This document shows positions 5,182 to 23,149 of a stretch of 36,876 nt of DNA, one piece after another; within the stretch, counting starts at the first letter, position 1, and every line of letters starts with the position of its first letter. The notes below the pieces were generated by a model. That model was not told the DNA's origin. It did no database searches and was given only the letters and a program-made list of their open reading frames with translations. A program made the position numbers and the translations under genes. This stretch comes from Gemmatimonadota bacterium (lineage in GTDB: Bacteria; Gemmatimonadota; Gemmatimonadetes; Gemmatimonadales; Gemmatimonadaceae): contig JAPLKT010000138.1 of the NCBI GenBank assembly GCA_026387895.1, positions 1 to 36,876 of the forward strand, given 5' to 3'.

Positions 5182-5973
5182 TTAGCGGATCATGTGGCCG
5201 AGACGACCCCAGCGGATGTCGGAGATAAACGACACCGGCCGATCGCTCGACTCCTGCGGCACGTACGAGTAGTACACAAACAGCGGACGACCGCGGACGT
5301 TCCCGCGCGGCACAAAGCCCCAGAAGCGGCTGTCCTTTGAGTCGTAGCGATTGTCCCCCATCATCCAGTAGTGCGTCGGCGGCACCACCAGTGGCCCCCA
5401 GGTATCGACCGAGTGCTGCTCCGGCGCCGAGCCGAAGCGGCTGTTCTTCAGACCAAGCGGTTTCTGCCAATCGAAGTTCGGCACGACCATCGAGCCGTCA
5501 CCCGGCGTTTGGTCCGCCGAGGCAAATCCCTGTCGCTGTGCCTGTCCGTTGATGTACACCACGCCCTCGCGACCGTAAATCGTGTCGCCCGGCATGCCGA
5601 TCAGGCGCTTCACAAGAATCGGCGTGGGATCATCGCCATTGTCTGCCTGATACGGCGACACAAACACCACCACGTCACCCCGCAACGGATCGGCGTAGCC
5701 CGGCAGGTTGATGTTGGTGTACGGAATGTTCGGACCAAAACGCAGTTTGTTCACGAACAGCCAGTCACCGATGAGCATCGTCGGAATCATGGATCCCGAC
5801 GGAATCCGAAACGCCTCGACGAAGAAGGTGCGCAACACCAGAAAGAGCGCCACCGTCCCGGCGAGCGATTTGACGTGCTCCCAAACAGTACGACCGAAGT
5901 TTCCGGAGCTCGCGCTCTTTCCGCTGCGTGCAGTAGCGACGGTTCCCTTCTTTGCGGGTGCTTTTTTGGCCAC
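5182..5973 (-). CDS. lepB: Signal peptidase I
   Basis: Signal peptidase I cleaves Sec and Tat signal peptides on the outer face of the inner membrane. The 263-residue product has a basic Lys/Ala-rich cytosolic leader, one membrane segment (SLAGTVALFLVLRTFFVEAF) and the S26 boxes. These are the nucleophile Ser61 in IPSGSMIPT, the general base Lys122 in VKRLIGMPGD, and the late box MMGDNRYDSKDSRFWGFV. The start is a GTG at 5973 with no good Shine-Dalgarno. It heads a run of genes of which at least three downstream members carry signal peptides and are likely clients. The SWIB terminator at 6105-6140 insulates it from the gene upstream. Confidence 0.96.
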   Translation of the reverse strand: MAKKAPAKKGTVATARSGKSASSGNFGRTVWEHVKSLAGTVALFLVLRTFFVEAFRIPSGSMIPTMLIGDWLFVNKLRFGPNIPYTNINLPGYADPLRGDVVVFVSPYQADNGDDPTPILVKRLIGMPGDTIYGREGVVYINGQAQRQGFASADQTPGDGSMVVPNFDWQKPLGLKNSRFGSAPEQHSVDTWGPLVVPPTHYWMMGDNRYDSKDSRFWGFVPRGNVRGRPLFVYYSYVPQESSDRPVSFISDIRWGRLGHMIR

Positions 5974-6653: not shown

Positions 6654-7571
6654 CTAGCGCGCCTCGAGCGACTCCAATAAACGGAGCATTCGCACGTCCG
6701 CCGGGTCTGCAGAAATGTCCTCATCCACGACCTCCGACCGCTCCGATGGTGTCTCGAGAATGAGCGGAATCTCCTCTGAAAACGGGTCCGCGAGCAACCA
6801 ACCGAAGCACGCCACACCAATGGCGCCCTCGCCGATCAGTGCGTGGCGATCCTTGTTCGATCCGAAGGGATGCTGACTGTCGTTCAGATGCAAGAATGCG
6901 GGACGCTCGCCAATCGTCGCAACGAACGATTCCAGCACCTCCCGCTGTGCCGCGGCAGAACTCGCGATGTCGTGACCGCTCGCAAAAAGGTGGCACGTAT
7001 CAAGCCCGTAGCCGGTGCGATGCCGCAGGTTCTTCGGCACGCGCGCCAGCATGCGCGCGATCTCCGCGGCCGAACGACCCATCGTCCGTCCGGCCCCTGC
7101 GGTGTTCTCAATCAGCAGTCGCGTGCCGCTCGCGGTCTCGGGCACGAGCTCGAGCGCACGGGTAATGGCGTCGCCGACTTGATCGCAGGCGACATCAGGA
7201 TCGCCATCGCCCGCCGACCCGGGATGAAAACAAAACCCACCCACACCGAGCGCGGTGCTGCGTTCGAGTTCCTTCGCTAACCCACTCGCCGCACGCGTCG
7301 CCTTCACCTCCTCCGGCGACGCGGTGTTCAGCACATACGCCCCGTGCACCAGCACATGCCGCGGCTGGATCCCCGCCGCGTCGAGCGCGGCCTGGAAGGC
7401 CGCCGCACGACTGGGCTTGATCGTGACCTTCTCGTTGTAATACGTCGGCGGCGCCGTAAAGAGCTGCATCGCGCGCGCACCGGCGCTCCCCGCGCGCTGC
7501 ACGGCCTGTACGATGCCCCCCGCATCACTCGGGTGAACGCCGAGGAAGCGCGGGCTCACCGATGGCGTCAC
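6654..7571 (-). CDS. nfo: Endonuclease IV (AP endonuclease, deoxyribonuclease IV)
   Basis: This enzyme incises DNA 5' to abasic sites in base excision repair, using three metal ions in a TIM barrel. The 305 residues show the AP2Ec signatures: LGVHPSDAGG at the N-terminus, VHGAYVLN, FHPGSAGDGD, LIENTAGAGRTMG, GYGLDTCHLFASGHD, and HLNDSQHPFGSNKDRHALIGEG, with the last Glu in LILETP. These supply the expected His, Glu and Asp metal ligands. The start is a GTG at 7571 whose GTGA overlaps the stop of the receiver-HisKA gene, so the two are coupled. The intergenic stretch to the SWIB gene (6499-6653) holds no further gene that I can see. Confidence 0.93.
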   Translation of the reverse strand: MTPSVSPRFLGVHPSDAGGIVQAVQRAGSAGARAMQLFTAPPTYYNEKVTIKPSRAAAFQAALDAAGIQPRHVLVHGAYVLNTASPEEVKATRAASGLAKELERSTALGVGGFCFHPGSAGDGDPDVACDQVGDAITRALELVPETASGTRLLIENTAGAGRTMGRSAAEIARMLARVPKNLRHRTGYGLDTCHLFASGHDIASSAAAQREVLESFVATIGERPAFLHLNDSQHPFGSNKDRHALIGEGAIGVACFGWLLADPFSEEIPLILETPSERSEVVDEDISADPADVRMLRLLESLEAR

Positions 7572-8272
7572 GACGGCCCCTCTGGAGTCAGCGGCGTGTT
7601 CGGATTGATGTCAATCATGCGCGCGCTCCCGAGATACTCCACGCTGCGCGGATTCTGGATCTGCCGCAACCGCCTCACCACCTCGGCAATCCGCCGCGCC
7701 TGCTCGGCAATCGTCACGAGCGCCTCCTGTGTCTCCCGCTCCGTGAGCATATCCTGCTCGATCAACGCGGCGTGCGACAGCAGCGCGGCCAATGGATTGT
7801 TGATTTCGTGCTGAAGCGCCAATGACGTCTCACCGATACCGGCCAGATAGCGCGCTTTCCCCAGTTCCTCCTCCGCCGTACGGCGCGCGGCCGACACCTC
7901 AATCTGGCGCTCCGCAATACGCAGCCGCGCCTGCACTCGGTTGGGGGTCACGGGCTTGGACATATAGTCGTCAGCCCCCGCGTCGAGGACCTCCGTGAGG
8001 TCTTCAGAGCTGGCACGCCCAGTCACAATCAAGATGAACGGCACGTCACCGCGCGCCGACGCGCGAATACGACGGCACAGTGCCAATCCGTCGAGACGCG
8101 GCATCTCCCAGTCGAGAATGATCATGGGGGCCGGAGCGGCGACATACGCCTGCCATGCGGCCTCCCCGTCGGCCGCCATCGCCGTGACGGTGTGTCCGGC
8201 CTGCGTAATGACGTGCGACAGCAGGACGCGCATGGTCGGATCGTCATCGGCGAGCAGGACATTCAGTGGCAC
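7568..8272 (-). CDS. Response-regulator receiver fused to a HisKA domain without an ATPase domain
   Basis: Residues 4-120 (from the GTG at 8272) form a CheY-like receiver with acidic Asp10/Asp11, phospho-acceptor Asp54 in ILDWEMPRLDG, Thr84 and Lys106 in MSKP. After a short helical linker, residues 145-215 form a dimerisation/phosphotransfer helix pair with an intact H-box, ALQHEINNPLAALLSH (His155). The protein ends at 234 residues with no N, G1, F or G2 boxes, so the HATPase domain is missing; nfo begins immediately, so no remnant follows. It may serve as a phosphotransfer or scaffold protein. The start is uncertain: the GTG at 8272 abuts the receiver, while a GTG at 8368 would add 32 unconserved-looking residues. 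Confidence 0.85.
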   Translation of the reverse strand: MPLNVLLADDDPTMRVLLSHVITQAGHTVTAMAADGEAAWQAYVAAPAPMIILDWEMPRLDGLALCRRIRASARGDVPFILIVTGRASSEDLTEVLDAGADDYMSKPVTPNRVQARLRIAERQIEVSAARRTAEEELGKARYLAGIGETSLALQHEINNPLAALLSHAALIEQDMLTERETQEALVTIAEQARRIAEVVRRLRQIQNPRSVEYLGSARMIDINPNTPLTPEGPS

Positions 8273-8469
8273 GTCGGGATGTCTCGTCTTGCCGGTGGAG
8301 GAACATGCAAAGAACGCCGAACTCCGTGAAATCTGCCCAGTAGACTCTCCAAACGCGACCTCGGTCACGACGGCCTCCCCACTCTCCGCTGGCCCGTGGT
8401 TGACGGTATCTTTCAGGGGCAGCCCACCACGGTCCGCTCTCCCGCTCTCCCATTCGCACGGTACCCGCC

Positions 8470-16588: not shown

Positions 16589-19500
16589 TCAGTGCGCCGA
16601 CTTCTTCCGTGCCTCCTTCGGCACCATGTACTCCTCGGTATTGGGACGCACCGGCACATCGAACAATCCGGTCAGCTTGATGCGCCAGTCATCGAGAATC
16701 TCATAGATCGTCGGAATCACGAGCAACGTGAGGAACGTGGACGTAATCACGCCGCCGATGATCGCGCGGCCAAGTGGCGCACGGAAGTCTGCCCCCTCAC
16801 CGTTGCCGAGTGCCACCGGGATCATGCCCGCCACGAGCGCAAGCGTCGTCATCATGATCGGACGCAGACGAACGCGCCCGGCTTCGACGATCGCATCTTC
16901 GCGCCCGAGGCCGTTCTCCTGCCCCCACTTGGCAAAGTCGATCAACAGAATGGCGTTCTTCGCCACGATGCCCATCAACAGGATCACGCCAATCATGCTC
17001 ATGATGTTGAGCGTGCCGCCCGTAAGAATCAGCGCAAGCACCACACCGATCAGCGAGAGCGGCAACGACACCATGATGGCGATCGGCTCCAAGAAGCTGC
17101 CGAACTGCATCACGAGAATCAGGTACATCAGCAGCACCGCCACACCCAGCGCGGCGAAGATCTTGCCGAACACTTCCTGCTGATCCTTCACCTCGCCACC
17201 GGCGGTAATGCGATATCCCGCCGGGAGTGCGAGTCCGGCGAGCGCCTTGCTGATGTCTTGGTTGACTTCGCCAATGGACCGCCCCTGCACGTTGGCCTCG
17301 ACGACCACCACATTCTCACGATCCAAATGCGAGATAAGGGCCGGTCCAAGCCCGGAGGTGACGGTGGCAATCTGCCCGAGCGGCATCACACTGCGCCCGC
17401 CGCCGAGTCCGGCCACGACGATCGGCAAGCGCTGAATGTCAGATTGCTTGCTACGCGCATCGCTCGCGAGACGCACACGTACCTTGCGATTCTCGCCAGC
17501 GGGATCCACCCAGTCGCCGGCATCAACACCGGCGAACGCCGGCCGCAGCGCTTGGGCGACCTGTCCGACGGTCACGCCCATCGAGCCGGCGAGCTGACGA
17601 TTCAAGTTGATCTCAAGCTCCGGCTTCTGTCCCTTGGTGCTCAGTGCGAGATCAACCACACTTGGCACTTTCGCCATGAGCTTCATCGCGCTATCGGCGA
17701 GCACACTCAATGTGCGCGCATCCTTGCCGCGCATTTCCACTTGAATCTGCTTGCGGGCGCCACCCATGCCGCCCGTGAAGATGAAGGCCTTGGCCCCACC
17801 AATCTTGGCGATCTGGTCACGCAGCATGCCGCCGAACTCCTGTTGCGACACCTTTCGCGTCGCCTTCGGGTTCATGCGGACGTACACGGTTCCCAAGTCC
17901 ACGGCACCAATCGCGGCGCCGGGCTGCATTCCCGCGCTGCTCCCACCGACCGTCGCGAAAGTGTAGTTCACGAGATCCTTGTGGCCGAGCGCGAGGCGCG
18001 CGACTTCCATGGTCTTCATGCGTGTGTAGTCCAAGTTCGATCCCGGCGGCGTCTGCACCTGCATCGTCAGCTCGCTGCGATCGCTGTCCGGCACAAAGCC
18101 AAAGCCGCCGAACTTTACCTGCAGCCAAATCGCTGCTACAAACGTTACGGCCGCTAACGCCACCATGCTCCACCGATGCCGGAGCGCCCAGCGAATCACA
18201 TGCGTGTACTTCTCGCTCATGCGATCGAACCAGGCATTGAACGCATCCAGCTGTCGCGTAATCCAACCGCGGTGCTCCCCTTCTACTTTCTCCGGATCCG
18301 GCCAGTACGCCGACAGCATCGGATCAAGCGAGAATGATACGAAGAGCGACACGAGCACGGCCATGGCAATCGTCAACGCAAATGGCTTGAACCACTGCCC
18401 GGCGGTGCCATACATAAAGCCAATCGGCACGAACACGGCGACGATCGAGAAGGTCGTGGCCGCGACGGCCATACCGATTTCATCGGTCCCCTCGTGCGAG
18501 GCGCGGAAGTGATCTTTTCCCATCTCGATGTGTCGCACGATGTTCTCGCGCACCACGATGGCATCGTCGATCAAAATACCAATCGCCAGCGAGAGACCGA
18601 GCAGCGACATCGTGTTGAGCGTGAAGCCAAAGGCGTACACGGCGATAAAGCTCGCCATCACCGACACCGGCAGCGCCAAGCCGGTGATGACGGTGGAACG
18701 CCAGGAGTTCAAGAATAGGAACACGACGAGCACCGTGAGGAGCGCGCCCTCGATGAGCGTCTCCTCCACGTTCTGCACCGAGCGTTCAACGCGGTCACCA
18801 GAATTTTGGACGACGTCGAGATGCACACCCGCGGGGAGCGCGGCCTTCAGCGCTGTGACTTTCGCCAAGACCTTGGCCGCGACCTGCGATGTGCTGTATC
18901 CCTTGGACTTCTTGATCATGATACCGACGGCATCGCTCTGTGCGCCGGTGCTGCTCTGGCCGTAAATAGCCGACGACCGCGCTTCGGCGGTTCCATCCTT
19001 GGCGGTTGCAATCTCGCCAAGTCGGATCGCACGTCCGCCGCGCTGGTCGACCACCAAGTTCATGAAATCGGCCGGCGTCTCGAGCTTGCCGCGCAATCGA
19101 ATCGAACGCTCGTCGAGCGTGCCGCCGATCTTCCCGACCGGCACCGAGAGGTTCTGTTGCTGCAACGCGGCCACCAGCTGTGCCACACTGATCCCTGCGG
19201 CCTGCATGGCATCCGGGCGAATCTCCACGGTCAGCTCACGCTCAATTCCGCCCACCACGGTCGCCTCGGCGACACCGGCAATGCCGCGCAACTCCTTGGT
19301 GATCCCCGGATCGGCAATCCGCGTCAGACTCGGCGCGTCAAGCGTGGTGGAGTTCAGCGAGAGCTGCACAATGGGCTGATCGCCCGGATCGAAGCGCGAG
19401 AGCACCGGCTCCTTGATCTCAGGCGGGAGCTGGTCGCGCACTGAGCTGATCTTGTCGCGGATATCTTGCGAGGCCTGTTGAATGTCCTTCTCAAAGACGA

Positions 19501-19783
19501 AGGCCACCGTGATGTTCGCAAAGCCGTCCTGCGCGCTGCCGTTGATACGATCCACGCCGCTGATGCCGCTGATCGCTTCTTCCACGCGATCGAGCACTTC
19601 GCGCTCGACGACGTCCGGTGCCGCACCCGGATACGGGATGGCCACGTTGACGATCGGCTGCGCCACATCCGGAAACTCGTCCGTCTGCAACTGCGCCATG
19701 GAGAACACGCCGAACACCACGAGCGCCACCATCGAGACGACGGTAACAATCGGGCGCTTGATGGCAAAATCTGAAATGAACAT
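16589..19783 (-). CDS. RND efflux pump, inner-membrane permease (AcrB/HAE-1 family)
   Basis: This proton-driven trimer exports hydrophobic or amphiphilic compounds through a periplasm-spanning complex. The 1064 residues are close to AcrB (1049). They show the N-terminal FISDFAIKRPIVTVVSMVALVVFG, paired porter domains (PIVQLSLNSTTLD... and the second half from IRWALRHRWSMVALAAVTF), and twelve expected membrane segments. The proton-relay Asp pair is present in LAIGILIDDAIVVREN (about 405). Near the C-terminus LRPIMMTTLALVAGMIPVALG matches the family. The tail (KEARKKSAH) is basic. The start has GGGGAT 6 bases upstream and lies 9 bases after the adaptor gene, so it is the last gene of the TetR-OMF/adaptor/pump operon. 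Substrates are not predictable. Confidence 0.95.
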   Translation of the reverse strand: MFISDFAIKRPIVTVVSMVALVVFGVFSMAQLQTDEFPDVAQPIVNVAIPYPGAAPDVVEREVLDRVEEAISGISGVDRINGSAQDGFANITVAFVFEKDIQQASQDIRDKISSVRDQLPPEIKEPVLSRFDPGDQPIVQLSLNSTTLDAPSLTRIADPGITKELRGIAGVAEATVVGGIERELTVEIRPDAMQAAGISVAQLVAALQQQNLSVPVGKIGGTLDERSIRLRGKLETPADFMNLVVDQRGGRAIRLGEIATAKDGTAEARSSAIYGQSSTGAQSDAVGIMIKKSKGYSTSQVAAKVLAKVTALKAALPAGVHLDVVQNSGDRVERSVQNVEETLIEGALLTVLVVFLFLNSWRSTVITGLALPVSVMASFIAVYAFGFTLNTMSLLGLSLAIGILIDDAIVVRENIVRHIEMGKDHFRASHEGTDEIGMAVAATTFSIVAVFVPIGFMYGTAGQWFKPFALTIAMAVLVSLFVSFSLDPMLSAYWPDPEKVEGEHRGWITRQLDAFNAWFDRMSEKYTHVIRWALRHRWSMVALAAVTFVAAIWLQVKFGGFGFVPDSDRSELTMQVQTPPGSNLDYTRMKTMEVARLALGHKDLVNYTFATVGGSSAGMQPGAAIGAVDLGTVYVRMNPKATRKVSQQEFGGMLRDQIAKIGGAKAFIFTGGMGGARKQIQVEMRGKDARTLSVLADSAMKLMAKVPSVVDLALSTKGQKPELEINLNRQLAGSMGVTVGQVAQALRPAFAGVDAGDWVDPAGENRKVRVRLASDARSKQSDIQRLPIVVAGLGGGRSVMPLGQIATVTSGLGPALISHLDRENVVVVEANVQGRSIGEVNQDISKALAGLALPAGYRITAGGEVKDQQEVFGKIFAALGVAVLLMYLILVMQFGSFLEPIAIMVSLPLSLIGVVLALILTGGTLNIMSMIGVILLMGIVAKNAILLIDFAKWGQENGLGREDAIVEAGRVRLRPIMMTTLALVAGMIPVALGNGEGADFRAPLGRAIIGGVITSTFLTLLVIPTIYEILDDWRIKLTGLFDVPVRPNTEEYMVPKEARKKSAH

Positions 19784-19792
19784 GGTGATCCC

Positions 19793-20926
19793 CTAGTTCT
19801 TCGCGACGGGTTTGTCCGACGGCGCATTGACCTTCACCGGCGCACCAACGGTGATGCCCTGCGCGCGCCCAACGAGCACGGTGTCACCGCGCGCGAGCCC
19901 GGTCAGCACCTCGACGTTCTCGGTCTCGTCGTCACGCACGCCCAAGGTGATCTCGACCTTCTCCGCCTTCCCGCCCTTGAGGCGGAGCACCGACGGCTTG
20001 AGTCCGCGCTGGTCCACCGCGTTCATCGGGATAGCAAGTGCGGAGTGGCTGGTGCTCGCCACCCGGCCGGAGGCAAACAACCCTGCCACCAACCCGCTCC
20101 CGGCGTTCGGGATGCGCGCGTAGAGGCGCACCTGCTTGGTCTGCGGGTCGGCACTGGGATAGATATTGCTGATGGTGCCCACGAATGACTTACCGGGGTA
20201 GCCGGTAACCCCAAACTTGATGTTCGCCCCCAGGCGCACGGCGCCGAGTTGGTCCGCGGGCACGGAGCCTTCGAGGCGCATGGTGGAGGGATCGACAATC
20301 GTAAACATCGGTGCGCCGGGCGCGACAATGTCGCCGGCATTCACCTGCCGCTCGCTCACGATGCCATCATAGGGCGCCTTGAGTGTGGTGTTGTCGAGAT
20401 TGCGCTGGGCGTTCGCCAGGCGAGCCTTCGCATCTTCCAGCGCGGCCTGTGCGGCCAGATTCCCGCGGCGCGCATTCTCCACCGCGTTCTCGGCGACGGC
20501 ACCAGCGGCGAGGAGTCGTTCCGCACGGTCTTGGTCGCGCTTGGCGATATCGGCACCGAGCTGCGCCTGCGTCACACCGCTCTTGGCGCCGAGCATCGTC
20601 TCGCGCACCGCGTTGTCGTCCACGCGGGCGAGCGGCGTGTCCTTGCTCACGTGCGCACCGGGCTCTACGAGCACGGCGGTCACGCGTCCACTCACTTCGG
20701 CGCGAATCGCCGCGGTTTTGTCGGCCACGAGCGATCCAGAGATCGAGGGACCGCTCGTAATGGTCGTCTGCGCAACGAGTGCGACGAGCTCGGGTCCGAT
20801 GATTTGCTCTGGAATCGCGCTGCTCGCAACGTCGGCTTTCTTGCCGCACGCGGCGAGTGCGCTCGTCGCGCCGAGCGCGAGTGTGAGCAGGGGCGCCCGC
20901 AGGGCGCGGATGGAGCGGGACTGCAT
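19793..20926 (-). CDS. RND efflux periplasmic adaptor (membrane fusion protein), lipoprotein
   Basis: AcrA-type adaptors bridge the pump and the outer-membrane channel. The 377-residue product has a lipoprotein signal with lipobox LAAC (Cys27), a first half-lipoyl region (RAEVSGRVTAVLVEPGAHV), a helical hairpin (about 95-175, rich in Ala and Glu, such as AQAALEDAKARLANAQRNLD), the second lipoyl half (LKAPYDGIVSERQVNAGDIV) and beta-barrel and membrane-proximal parts. The ATG at 20926 is preferred because AGAGGAA lies upstream and the lipoprotein signal starts there; ATGs at 20953 and 20965 would add 9 or 13 polar residues. It is cotranscribed with the TetR-TolC ORF upstream and the pump downstream. 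Confidence 0.94.
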   Translation of the reverse strand: MQSRSIRALRAPLLTLALGATSALAACGKKADVASSAIPEQIIGPELVALVAQTTITSGPSISGSLVADKTAAIRAEVSGRVTAVLVEPGAHVSKDTPLARVDDNAVRETMLGAKSGVTQAQLGADIAKRDQDRAERLLAAGAVAENAVENARRGNLAAQAALEDAKARLANAQRNLDNTTLKAPYDGIVSERQVNAGDIVAPGAPMFTIVDPSTMRLEGSVPADQLGAVRLGANIKFGVTGYPGKSFVGTISNIYPSADPQTKQVRLYARIPNAGSGLVAGLFASGRVASTSHSALAIPMNAVDQRGLKPSVLRLKGGKAEKVEITLGVRDDETENVEVLTGLARGDTVLVGRAQGITVGAPVKVNAPSDKPVAKN

Positions 20927-20967
20927 TGGGGTATTCCTCTGTGAGTTAGTCATGGCGTTCGTCATTG

Positions 20968-23013
20968 TTAGCGCCGCACGGTGACGGGCAGATCCTTCAG
21001 GAAGGCCACGCGCAAGCGGGCGACTTCCAAGTCGCGCGCGGCGAGCACGCGGTTCAGCCGCGCCTGTTCGTACTGCGTGCGGCTCTGTAGCAGCTCCACC
21101 TGGGTGGAGATCCCTTCATTGAAACGCACCTCGGCAATCGCATAGGCGCGGCGTGCTTGCTCGTCGGTCCCCACGCTGCTCGCGTAGGATGCTTGCGCCT
21201 GCTCAAGCTGGAGAATCGCCGTGCGCGCGTCGAGCGCCGCGAGTTCACGCGACTGCTCAAAGGTCTGCTGCGCGTCAATCAAGTTCGCCTGAGCAATCGC
21301 CTGCGCGTCAATCAAGTTCGCCTGAGCAATCGCGCGGTCGGCCGTGAGCTTGCCGCCGGTGAAGACCGGCACCGACAACCCGAGCGAGATGGTCCAGTTC
21401 GGGTAGTACTGATTGAGTGCGAGCGGCAGGATGCCATTGGGGTACGCAAAACGCTGATACGCTGTCGACAGCTGTACGGAGGGCAAGCGGTTCATGTCGG
21501 CCGCTGCCAAAGCGAACTGTTGCGCTGTCACGTTGGCCGCCGCTTGGCGCACGGTGGCTCGGTGCGCGACGGCCGTGTCTGCTGAAGGTGCCGCGGCCGC
21601 AACACCTTCGTCGCGGATTGGCGTGGTGAGTGCGAGCGGCTTGTCGAGCGAGATGCCCAACAACTGGCGCATACGCATCATCGTGAGATCGTAGTTGCCG
21701 CGCGCTTGGATCAGCGCCGGACGCTGATTGTCACGCGCGACGCGTGCGCGCAGCAGATCGAACTCTGCTGCAGTTCCGACTTGCTTGCTGACGGTGGTCT
21801 GCGCGAGCGTGCGTTCGGCCTGGGCAAGGGTGCTGTCGGCGATGTCGACCAGCGCCTTGGCGGCGACGGCGTCGAAGTAGGCTTGTGCGATATCGAGATT
21901 CACTTGCGCGCGCGCCGCGTCGAGTCCGATATCGGCCGCGGTGCGTGCGGCAGAGGCACCCTGCGTCGCCGATTCCAGCTTGCCCGCGGTGTAGAGATTC
22001 TGCGTCAGCGACACGCCTAGTGTGGCCGTGTTCGGCGAGGCGAAGATCTTGGTGATGTCACCAAAGCCGCTCGTGCCGCCGCTGGAGCCAGAACCAGAGC
22101 CAGAGCTACTTCCCGCCGTGATCGCGGAGAACTGCGACTGCATCAAGCGCTGGTAGGCGAAGGTCCCGTTGATCTGCGGCAGGTACTGGGCGCGCGCCTG
22201 TTGCTGTTGTGCACCGGCACGCATCACGCCAGCCTGGGCGCTGTGCACCGTGTGGCTCGCCTTCTGTCCCATGGTGAGGGCGTCGGCGAGCGAGATGGCG
22301 GCGGCCGGCGTCGCCGCGGTTCCCTGCGCGACCGCTGCCAACGGGGCGGCAACGACGAGGAAGGCGATGCTGAGCGCGCGTCGCACGCGCGTGATCGTCC
22401 GCTTGCGATCGCTCGCCAGCTGCATCGCGGCGGAATCGTAGCCGAGCGAGAGCAGCGTGAGGCGTGCGTAGTTGGCTGGCGCAGCAGTGACGGGCTGCGG
22501 GAAGGCGTGTGGCATCATGTCGCGACCAAGCGCGTCGTGAAATATGGCGCTCATTAACATCGACGCCGCACTGATCACGTCAGCATCGGCGCGGACCGCA
22601 CCCTGCTCGACCAGTCGCGTGAGATAATCACGCAGGTTCATCAGAGACTGCGCCGCCCCGTGCGTCATGCACTTGGGCATGGCGGGATTCACTTCGAACT
22701 CGGCCATCGCTTTGCGGATCATGCCGCGCATCGCCACCAGCGATTTCCGCATGTGCGCACTCCATGCGGTGAGCTCGGCGAGCGGATCCACTGGAATTTC
22801 GGGAAGCGCGGCGTCCGGATGGGTTGCTCCGGAGACCCGAAGCGCTTCGAGGAGCAGCGCGTTCTTGCTTCCGAACTGGCGGAAGAGGGTGACTTCGTTG
22901 ACGCCGGCGGCCTCGGCGATTTTGCGCGTGGTGGCGCCGCGGAATCCGAGCTCGCCATACACGCGGGCAGCGGCGGTGAGGACGTGGGTGCGGGTTGGAA
23001 CGGAAACGGACAT
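20968..23013 (-). CDS. Fused ORF: TetR/AcrR repressor + TolC-type outer-membrane efflux protein
   Basis: One uninterrupted 681-codon frame encodes two normally separate proteins. Residues 8-195 are a TetR/AcrR regulator: helix-turn-helix ATTRKIAEAAGVNEVTLFRQF (26-46) and an all-helical ligand domain ending near LTLLSLGYDSAA. From Met197 (ATG at 22425) the sequence MQLASDRKRTITRVRRALSI begins a classic signal peptide ending PLAAVAQ, followed by a TolC-type outer-membrane factor with two repeats of long helices and strands (TLGVSLTQNLYTAGKL; WTISLGLSVPVFTGGKL). A Ser/Gly linker lies at about residue 300. A fused product could not be both a cytosolic repressor and an outer-membrane channel, so internal initiation or cleavage is likely, though no ribosome site precedes Met197. 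A GTG at 23094 would extend the N-terminus by 27 residues. Confidence 0.88.
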   Translation of the reverse strand: MSVSVPTRTHVLTAAARVYGELGFRGATTRKIAEAAGVNEVTLFRQFGSKNALLLEALRVSGATHPDAALPEIPVDPLAELTAWSAHMRKSLVAMRGMIRKAMAEFEVNPAMPKCMTHGAAQSLMNLRDYLTRLVEQGAVRADADVISAASMLMSAIFHDALGRDMMPHAFPQPVTAAPANYARLTLLSLGYDSAAMQLASDRKRTITRVRRALSIAFLVVAAPLAAVAQGTAATPAAAISLADALTMGQKASHTVHSAQAGVMRAGAQQQQARAQYLPQINGTFAYQRLMQSQFSAITAGSSSGSGSGSSGGTSGFGDITKIFASPNTATLGVSLTQNLYTAGKLESATQGASAARTAADIGLDAARAQVNLDIAQAYFDAVAAKALVDIADSTLAQAERTLAQTTVSKQVGTAAEFDLLRARVARDNQRPALIQARGNYDLTMMRMRQLLGISLDKPLALTTPIRDEGVAAAAPSADTAVAHRATVRQAAANVTAQQFALAAADMNRLPSVQLSTAYQRFAYPNGILPLALNQYYPNWTISLGLSVPVFTGGKLTADRAIAQANLIDAQAIAQANLIDAQQTFEQSRELAALDARTAILQLEQAQASYASSVGTDEQARRAYAIAEVRFNEGISTQVELLQSRTQYEQARLNRVLAARDLEVARLRVAFLKDLPVTVRR
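21268..21333. repeat. Perfect 33-bp tandem duplication inside the TolC-type domain
   Basis: Two identical 33-bp copies (21268-21300 and 21301-21333) encode the 11-residue unit AIAQANLIDAQ twice in a row. The unit lies in a long helix of the outer-membrane factor. Eleven residues equal about three helical turns, so register is nearly kept. Base-perfect identity points to a recent duplication or strong constraint, or an assembly artefact. Confidence 0.93.
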
Positions 23014-23103
23014 GGTGGAACGCGCCTGCGCGCGGTGGTAGTGAAGCGGGGATGAAGCCGGTAGTGGATCCGGAGCCGACGCGTCGCGCGCCACATCCGG
23101 TCG

Positions 23104-23149
23104 TGCAAGTGATCACTTGCATTGTAAGCAAGTGAATACTTGCATTCAA
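23104..23149 (-). promoter_or_regulatory. Sigma70-type promoter with two TetR-type palindromic operators
   Basis: On the minus strand TTGAAT (23149-23144, -35) and TACAAT (23126-23121, -10) are exactly 17 bases apart. The spacer is filled by GCAAGTATTCACTTGC (23143-23128), and the perfect palindrome GCAAGTGATCACTTGC (23120-23105) follows the -10 box directly and covers the expected start site. Both share GCAAGT-N4-ACTTGC, with centres 23 bp apart. This fits autorepression of the efflux operon by the TetR domain encoded about 100 bases downstream. Confidence 0.85.

Follow-up and report, generated by a model that had tools for sequence, protein, structure and literature searches.

A TetR regulator and a TolC-type channel joined in one reading frame: a probable signal-peptidase-split polyprotein in Gemmatimonadaceae

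Gemmatimonadaceae are soil and water bacteria. In a member of this family, and in 22 further species, a TetR-family regulator and a TolC-type outer membrane factor (OMF) are encoded by one uninterrupted reading frame with a signal-peptide-like segment between the two domains. The reading that we favour, with a probability of roughly 0.7, is that this natural fusion yields a polyprotein that would control its own RND efflux operon and be split by signal peptidase I. Below, 'the window' denotes the whole 36,876-nucleotide stretch of DNA that was analysed.

One frame, two domains and an internal signal segment

The fusion gene and its parts are as follows.

20968–23013, minus strand: TetR–OMF fusion gene, 681 codons, uninterrupted, ATG start, TAA stop
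22441–23013, minus strand: TetR-family regulator part, residues 1–191; TetR_N HTH at residues 12–57, nine helices in the model
22327–22440, minus strand: junction, residues 192–229; basic stretch SDRKRTITRVRR, 17-residue hydrophobic core ALSIAFLVVAAPLAAVA, predicted cut A229/Q230
20971–22326, minus strand: TolC-type OMF, residues 230–681; Pfam OEP, Foldseek matches to TolC, CmeC, OprN and OprM

By open-reading-frame analysis, the gene runs on the minus strand from the ATG at 23013 to the TAA at 20968–20970, 681 residues without a stop; a GTG further upstream, at 23094, shares the frame. The continuous TetR–OMF frame proposed in the initial, sequence-only reading is therefore confirmed, the junction being open in 22 other species as well. 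In a Pfam scan of the window protein, TetR_N (PF00440) covers residues 12–57 (E = 1.7e-13, above the cut-off) and OEP (PF02321) matches two stretches (E = 9.7e-39, best 242–453), and both families were found in all 21 fused proteins scanned.

AlphaFold modelling of the window protein (mean pLDDT 75) and of the fused protein of a second genome, G194 (mean pLDDT 78), gave in each case a TetR of nine helices and a full OMF, with the junction between them predicted weakly. Both folds appear complete in the two models, which bear on the folds and not on cleavage. In the window model, the nine helices lie within residues 8–189, an all-helical TetR fold whose last helix ends near residue 191, and the OMF part combines long helices and strands with the two PF02321 stretches. 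Foldseek matched this model to TetR structures (TMt 0.56–0.73) and also to TolC-type channels.

Between the two folds, residues 203–229 form a basic stretch followed by a hydrophobic core and end in AVA|QG, a signal-peptidase type of site; cleavage is predicted from the residues found there rather than by a trained predictor. This hydrophobic segment bears out the internal signal peptide that had been claimed for the junction. The OMF has no N-terminal cleavable signal peptide of its own, its signal segment being internal, after about 200 residues, and the single open frame with an internal signal peptide and a cleavage-type site is the layout of a signal-peptidase-split polyprotein. All 23 fused proteins keep the upstream basic residues, the hydrophobic core (best 12-residue mean hydropathy 1.96–3.08) and an (A/S)|Q site, and the letters of the junction change fast. 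In one genus, g23, the linker is trimmed to nothing, and the last TetR helix, YVRLFLRSLGAT, runs directly into the core and occupies the place of the n-region.

The TetR and OMF halves are each under purifying selection, with pairwise dN/dS within clades of 0.07–0.21 for TetR (about 0.1 against the closest sister) and 0.06–0.25 for the OMF. The junction, at 0.15–0.88, mostly evolves faster than both.

The OMF part of the window gene also contains a direct repeat (window 21277–21333) whose two copies, each at least 24 bp long, lie 33 bp apart; it inserts 11 residues (AIAQANLIDAQ) into a helix. It is missing from the sister genome G015 and from the other aligned fused relatives, so it is either recent or an assembly artefact.

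Operator, promoter and operon

Upstream of the fusion lie a predicted pair of operators and a promoter, and downstream the remaining efflux genes.

23105–23120: operator palindrome GCAAGTGATCACTTGC, predicted
23128–23143: operator palindrome GCAAGTATTCACTTGC, 23 bp from the first, fills the promoter spacer; predicted
23121–23149, minus strand: sigma-70-like promoter TTGAAT-17-TACAAT around the operator; consensus match only
19793–20965, minus strand: adaptor (membrane fusion protein, HlyD family), next gene of the operon; domain match, adjoins in relatives
16589–19783, minus strand: RND inner-membrane pump, 1064-aa open reading frame; RND read from the sequence, not scanned

The palindrome GCAAGT-N4-ACTTGC, with up to two mismatches, stands upstream of TetR in 22 of 22 fused and 39 of 39 separate loci tested, against a background of 2 matches in 203,060 positions, and is often doubled, with the copies 22–23 bp apart. 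Because the operator is present at every fused and every separate locus tested, control of its own operon by the fused TetR has very probably been retained, and the natural reading of these sequences is local autorepression by a TetR that would recognise one operator whether fused or free. Exact copies in the window's genome number just two, both at this locus. A search of the genome for a wider regulon gave three further one-mismatch sites, no more than a reversed control pattern; a one-mismatch site by a gene resembling, by eye, that of threonyl-tRNA synthetase was taken as chance. The leader (23014–23104) is longer in the window and in G015, with operators at −130/−107 and −141/−118, than in most relatives, where it is usually at most 85 bases.

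With the adaptor and pump genes that follow, this is a regulator–OMF–adaptor–pump operon. The adaptor gene comes next in the relatives too, fused and separate, as does the pump gene wherever the flank reaches it. For AcrR-type local TetR regulators of RND efflux operons, local repression is the usual role (PMC8277102). The locus described here resembles theirs in its TetR fold, in the putative palindromic operator at the promoter and in an operon with OMF, adaptor and RND pump. In AcrR-type systems, however, the regulator is a separate protein, usually divergently encoded, whereas in the fusion it forms the N-terminal part of the chain that also contains the OMF. Elsewhere in the window, a short open reading frame (7568–8368, minus strand) encodes a response-regulator receiver and HisKA, with no HATPase found, and overlaps the next frame by 4 bases.

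Distribution and origins of the fusion

Relatives were sought by a protein search of 99 and by a profile search of 179 genomes of the family and 395 of the phylum, with junctions read singly. The frame is open across the junction in 23 Gemmatimonadaceae genomes, the window's included: six in the window's genus, g1 (G000, G015, G010, G012, G002 and G014), all 16 members of g23 that hold the locus (G039, G179 and G181–G194) and one in g3 (G019). The sources are for the most part draft metagenome assemblies; the genome of G194 is a single contig, and in G015, the 95%-identical sister, the fusion sits on a 392-kb contig. In nine further members of the window's genus, and in most other genera, a stop separates TetR and OMF into two genes. 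The first reading had proposed searching relatives for an absent stop codon, and had held that two separate genes in all of them would count against a true fusion. What was found is a mixture, with the stop absent from 23 genomes in three genera and two genes kept in most relatives.

No fusion was seen outside Gemmatimonadaceae among the 395 Gemmatimonadota genomes sampled, and none was found in plasmids. Long open frames suspected of hiding further fusions were fetched and proved to be separate genes, one of them (L085) without a TetR match. In two g23 loci on draft contigs, L093 (G192) and L101 (G186), the fused frame breaks inside the OMF, which may reflect assembly errors or real decay.

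On a tree built from TetR and the mature OMF without the junction, the state has to change four times, and well-supported branches force at least three of these changes. A single clade for all g1 and g23 fusions is rejected (AU test, p about 1e-9), and one clade for the two g1 fusion groups is not (p = 0.21). The fusion thus appears to have arisen several times, and the two g1 groups may share one origin. Counts of changes alone do not tell gains from losses; in the outgroups, taken from other families within the order and class, the genes are separate, which makes gains likelier.

We put at slightly below even the chance that the join is nearly neutral, that is, that the loss of a stop was tolerated, the signal peptide works inside the chain, and the fusion has no function of its own. 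Fused and separate loci occurring within one genus would fit this, with repeated changes on well-supported branches, as would G017, in which the two genes already share a frame with a single TGA between them. Against it, the join is kept in all 16 locus holders of g23, with nothing left of the linker, which suggests at least stable tolerance over that genus. A neutral origin bears on why the fusion exists, not on how the protein is made, and can be compatible with a polyprotein split by signal peptidase.

Proposed processing of the chain and its relation to known systems

For the polyprotein, we infer the following course of cleavage, topology, membrane anchoring and repression. Ribosomes would make TetR and the OMF as one chain, the TetR half of which would fold and dimerise in the cytosol. 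The segment that was once the N-terminal signal peptide of the OMF, and that now lies inside the chain, would enter Sec with its basic side in and its C-terminal side out. Signal peptidase I would cut at (A/S)|Q and so release the OMF, in ordinary mature form, for the outer membrane. The TetR half would bind GCAAGT-N4-ACTTGC upstream and repress its own operon. Just after the cut it would carry the signal peptide as a C-terminal membrane tail (N-in/C-out), which an RseP-type site-2 protease may later trim, so that TetR may work either from the membrane or once trimmed free.

A cytosolic N-terminal domain followed by basic residues, a core of about 17 residues and A-x-A|Q is expected to insert N-in/C-out and to be cut by signal peptidase I. 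Sec export behind a folded N-terminal domain of roughly 195 residues is less usual than export from an N-terminal signal, which counts against this course. The genome encodes two signal peptidase I candidates (Peptidase_S26), as well as Peptidase_M50 genes, which are site-2 protease candidates. One Peptidase_S26 gene lies in the window itself.

5182–5973, minus strand: signal peptidase I gene (Peptidase_S26), about 15 kb from the fusion; probably coincidence

Of the two routes to a separate channel first put forward, processing by signal peptidase fits better than internal initiation, but not in its original form, in which the cut frees an active repressor. By topology, cleavage alone would leave TetR with the signal peptide as a C-terminal anchor, and release would therefore need a second cut, for example by a site-2 protease. 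In E. coli, RseP cuts the signal-peptide remnants that leader peptidase leaves behind, and substrates of site-2 proteases are generally N-in/C-out (PMC8144685). TetR with the retained signal peptide would be a single N-in/C-out span with almost no periplasmic tail, the kind of substrate that RseP handles. It would resemble RseA, FecR and remnant signal peptides after their first cut (PMC8144685), except that the cargo here is a TetR repressor and the processing is predicted.

That a site-2 protease does release TetR from the remnant after the split, so that repressor release follows channel export, nonetheless seems to us rather unlikely. Peptidase_M50 genes are present, but site-2 proteases are nearly universal and their presence therefore says little; relatives with two genes, for their part, get by with a separate TetR at this operator. 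The analysis turned up no direct support for a sensing role of the fusion, which is speculation, and we consider it quite improbable that TetR, held by the left-over signal peptide or freed after both cuts, lets the operon read the export of its own channel. Such coupling, if true, would be a polyprotein-based feedback, which is not described for TetR regulators in the papers searched.

Alternatively, the OMF could be translated separately from an internal start, with the fused chain as a by-product, as had been suggested for an ATG at 22425.

22423–22425, minus strand: in-frame internal ATG, codon 197, putative alternative start; not conserved

We judge this alternative very unlikely as the main route. 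The window has one usable ATG with a basic n-region, as does only G019 among the other fused genes. Of the 16 g23 members, 13 encode a valine of the last TetR helix by a GTG that could start a plausible separate signal peptide; GTG is somewhat commoner at this place than among all valine codons of these genes (46%), which leaves internal initiation a possible side route in that genus. Yet the sister with 95% identity has CTG in place of the ATG at 22425, and 5 of the 23 fused genes (G015, G002, G014, G188 and G194) lack any usable ATG, GTG or TTG in the stretch that links the last TetR helix to the core. In three more (G010, G012 and G183), internal starts are present but all leave no basic n-region. 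Among the separate relatives, by comparison, 38 of 39 OMF genes begin at a start codon of their own that gives a basic n-region (ATG in 33), so the fused lineages have largely lost the OMF start. Its loss in relatives rules out the start at 22425 as a general mechanism, and because ribosomes translating TetR meet no stop, the fused chain must be made in any case.

The absence of a Shine–Dalgarno-like sequence before this ATG, raised earlier, is correct as an observation, but we dropped it as an argument: only 6 of the 39 separate OMF genes of relatives have such a tetramer within 20 bases of their start, so its absence says little and does not weigh against an internal start either.

Finally, although most sources are draft metagenome assemblies, loss of the stop codon through assembly or sequencing error has a negligible probability, and chance, error or a pseudogene is ruled out, because the same uninterrupted junction recurs in 22 other species, for 23 genomes in all with one on a single contig, and codon-level selection acts on both sides.

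The favoured reading, a chain split by signal peptidase I, has a known parallel in FbcH, the cytochrome b/c1 precursor of Bradyrhizobium and relatives, in which one gene gives two proteins by a split at an internal signal peptide. Both halves of FbcH belong to one membrane complex, whereas those of the window protein are a DNA-binding regulator and an outer-membrane channel, and their split is predicted. To our knowledge, bacterial polyproteins split by signal peptidase are rare. In the literature searched we found no report of a TetR–OMF fusion, and in the papers searched no signal-peptidase-split polyprotein that pairs a transcription factor with an outer-membrane channel. Should the tail stay on the TetR half, that half would resemble ChiS and TfoS (PMC11856585) as a DNA-binding regulator at the inner membrane; those proteins carry their own membrane anchor, whereas the putative anchor here would come from a different protein, as the remnant of its signal peptide. 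Both components are of known kinds, a local regulator of the TetR family and an OMF, here joined into what is probably a signal-peptidase-split polyprotein.

Gene callers and annotators should treat the fusion as genuine and should not split the gene at the internal ATG. For the biology of the family, the repeated fusions supply natural pairs, fused and separate within one genus, with the same operator and the same operon. With such pairs one can ask directly whether efflux regulation changes when a local repressor is synthesised one-to-one or anchored to the membrane.
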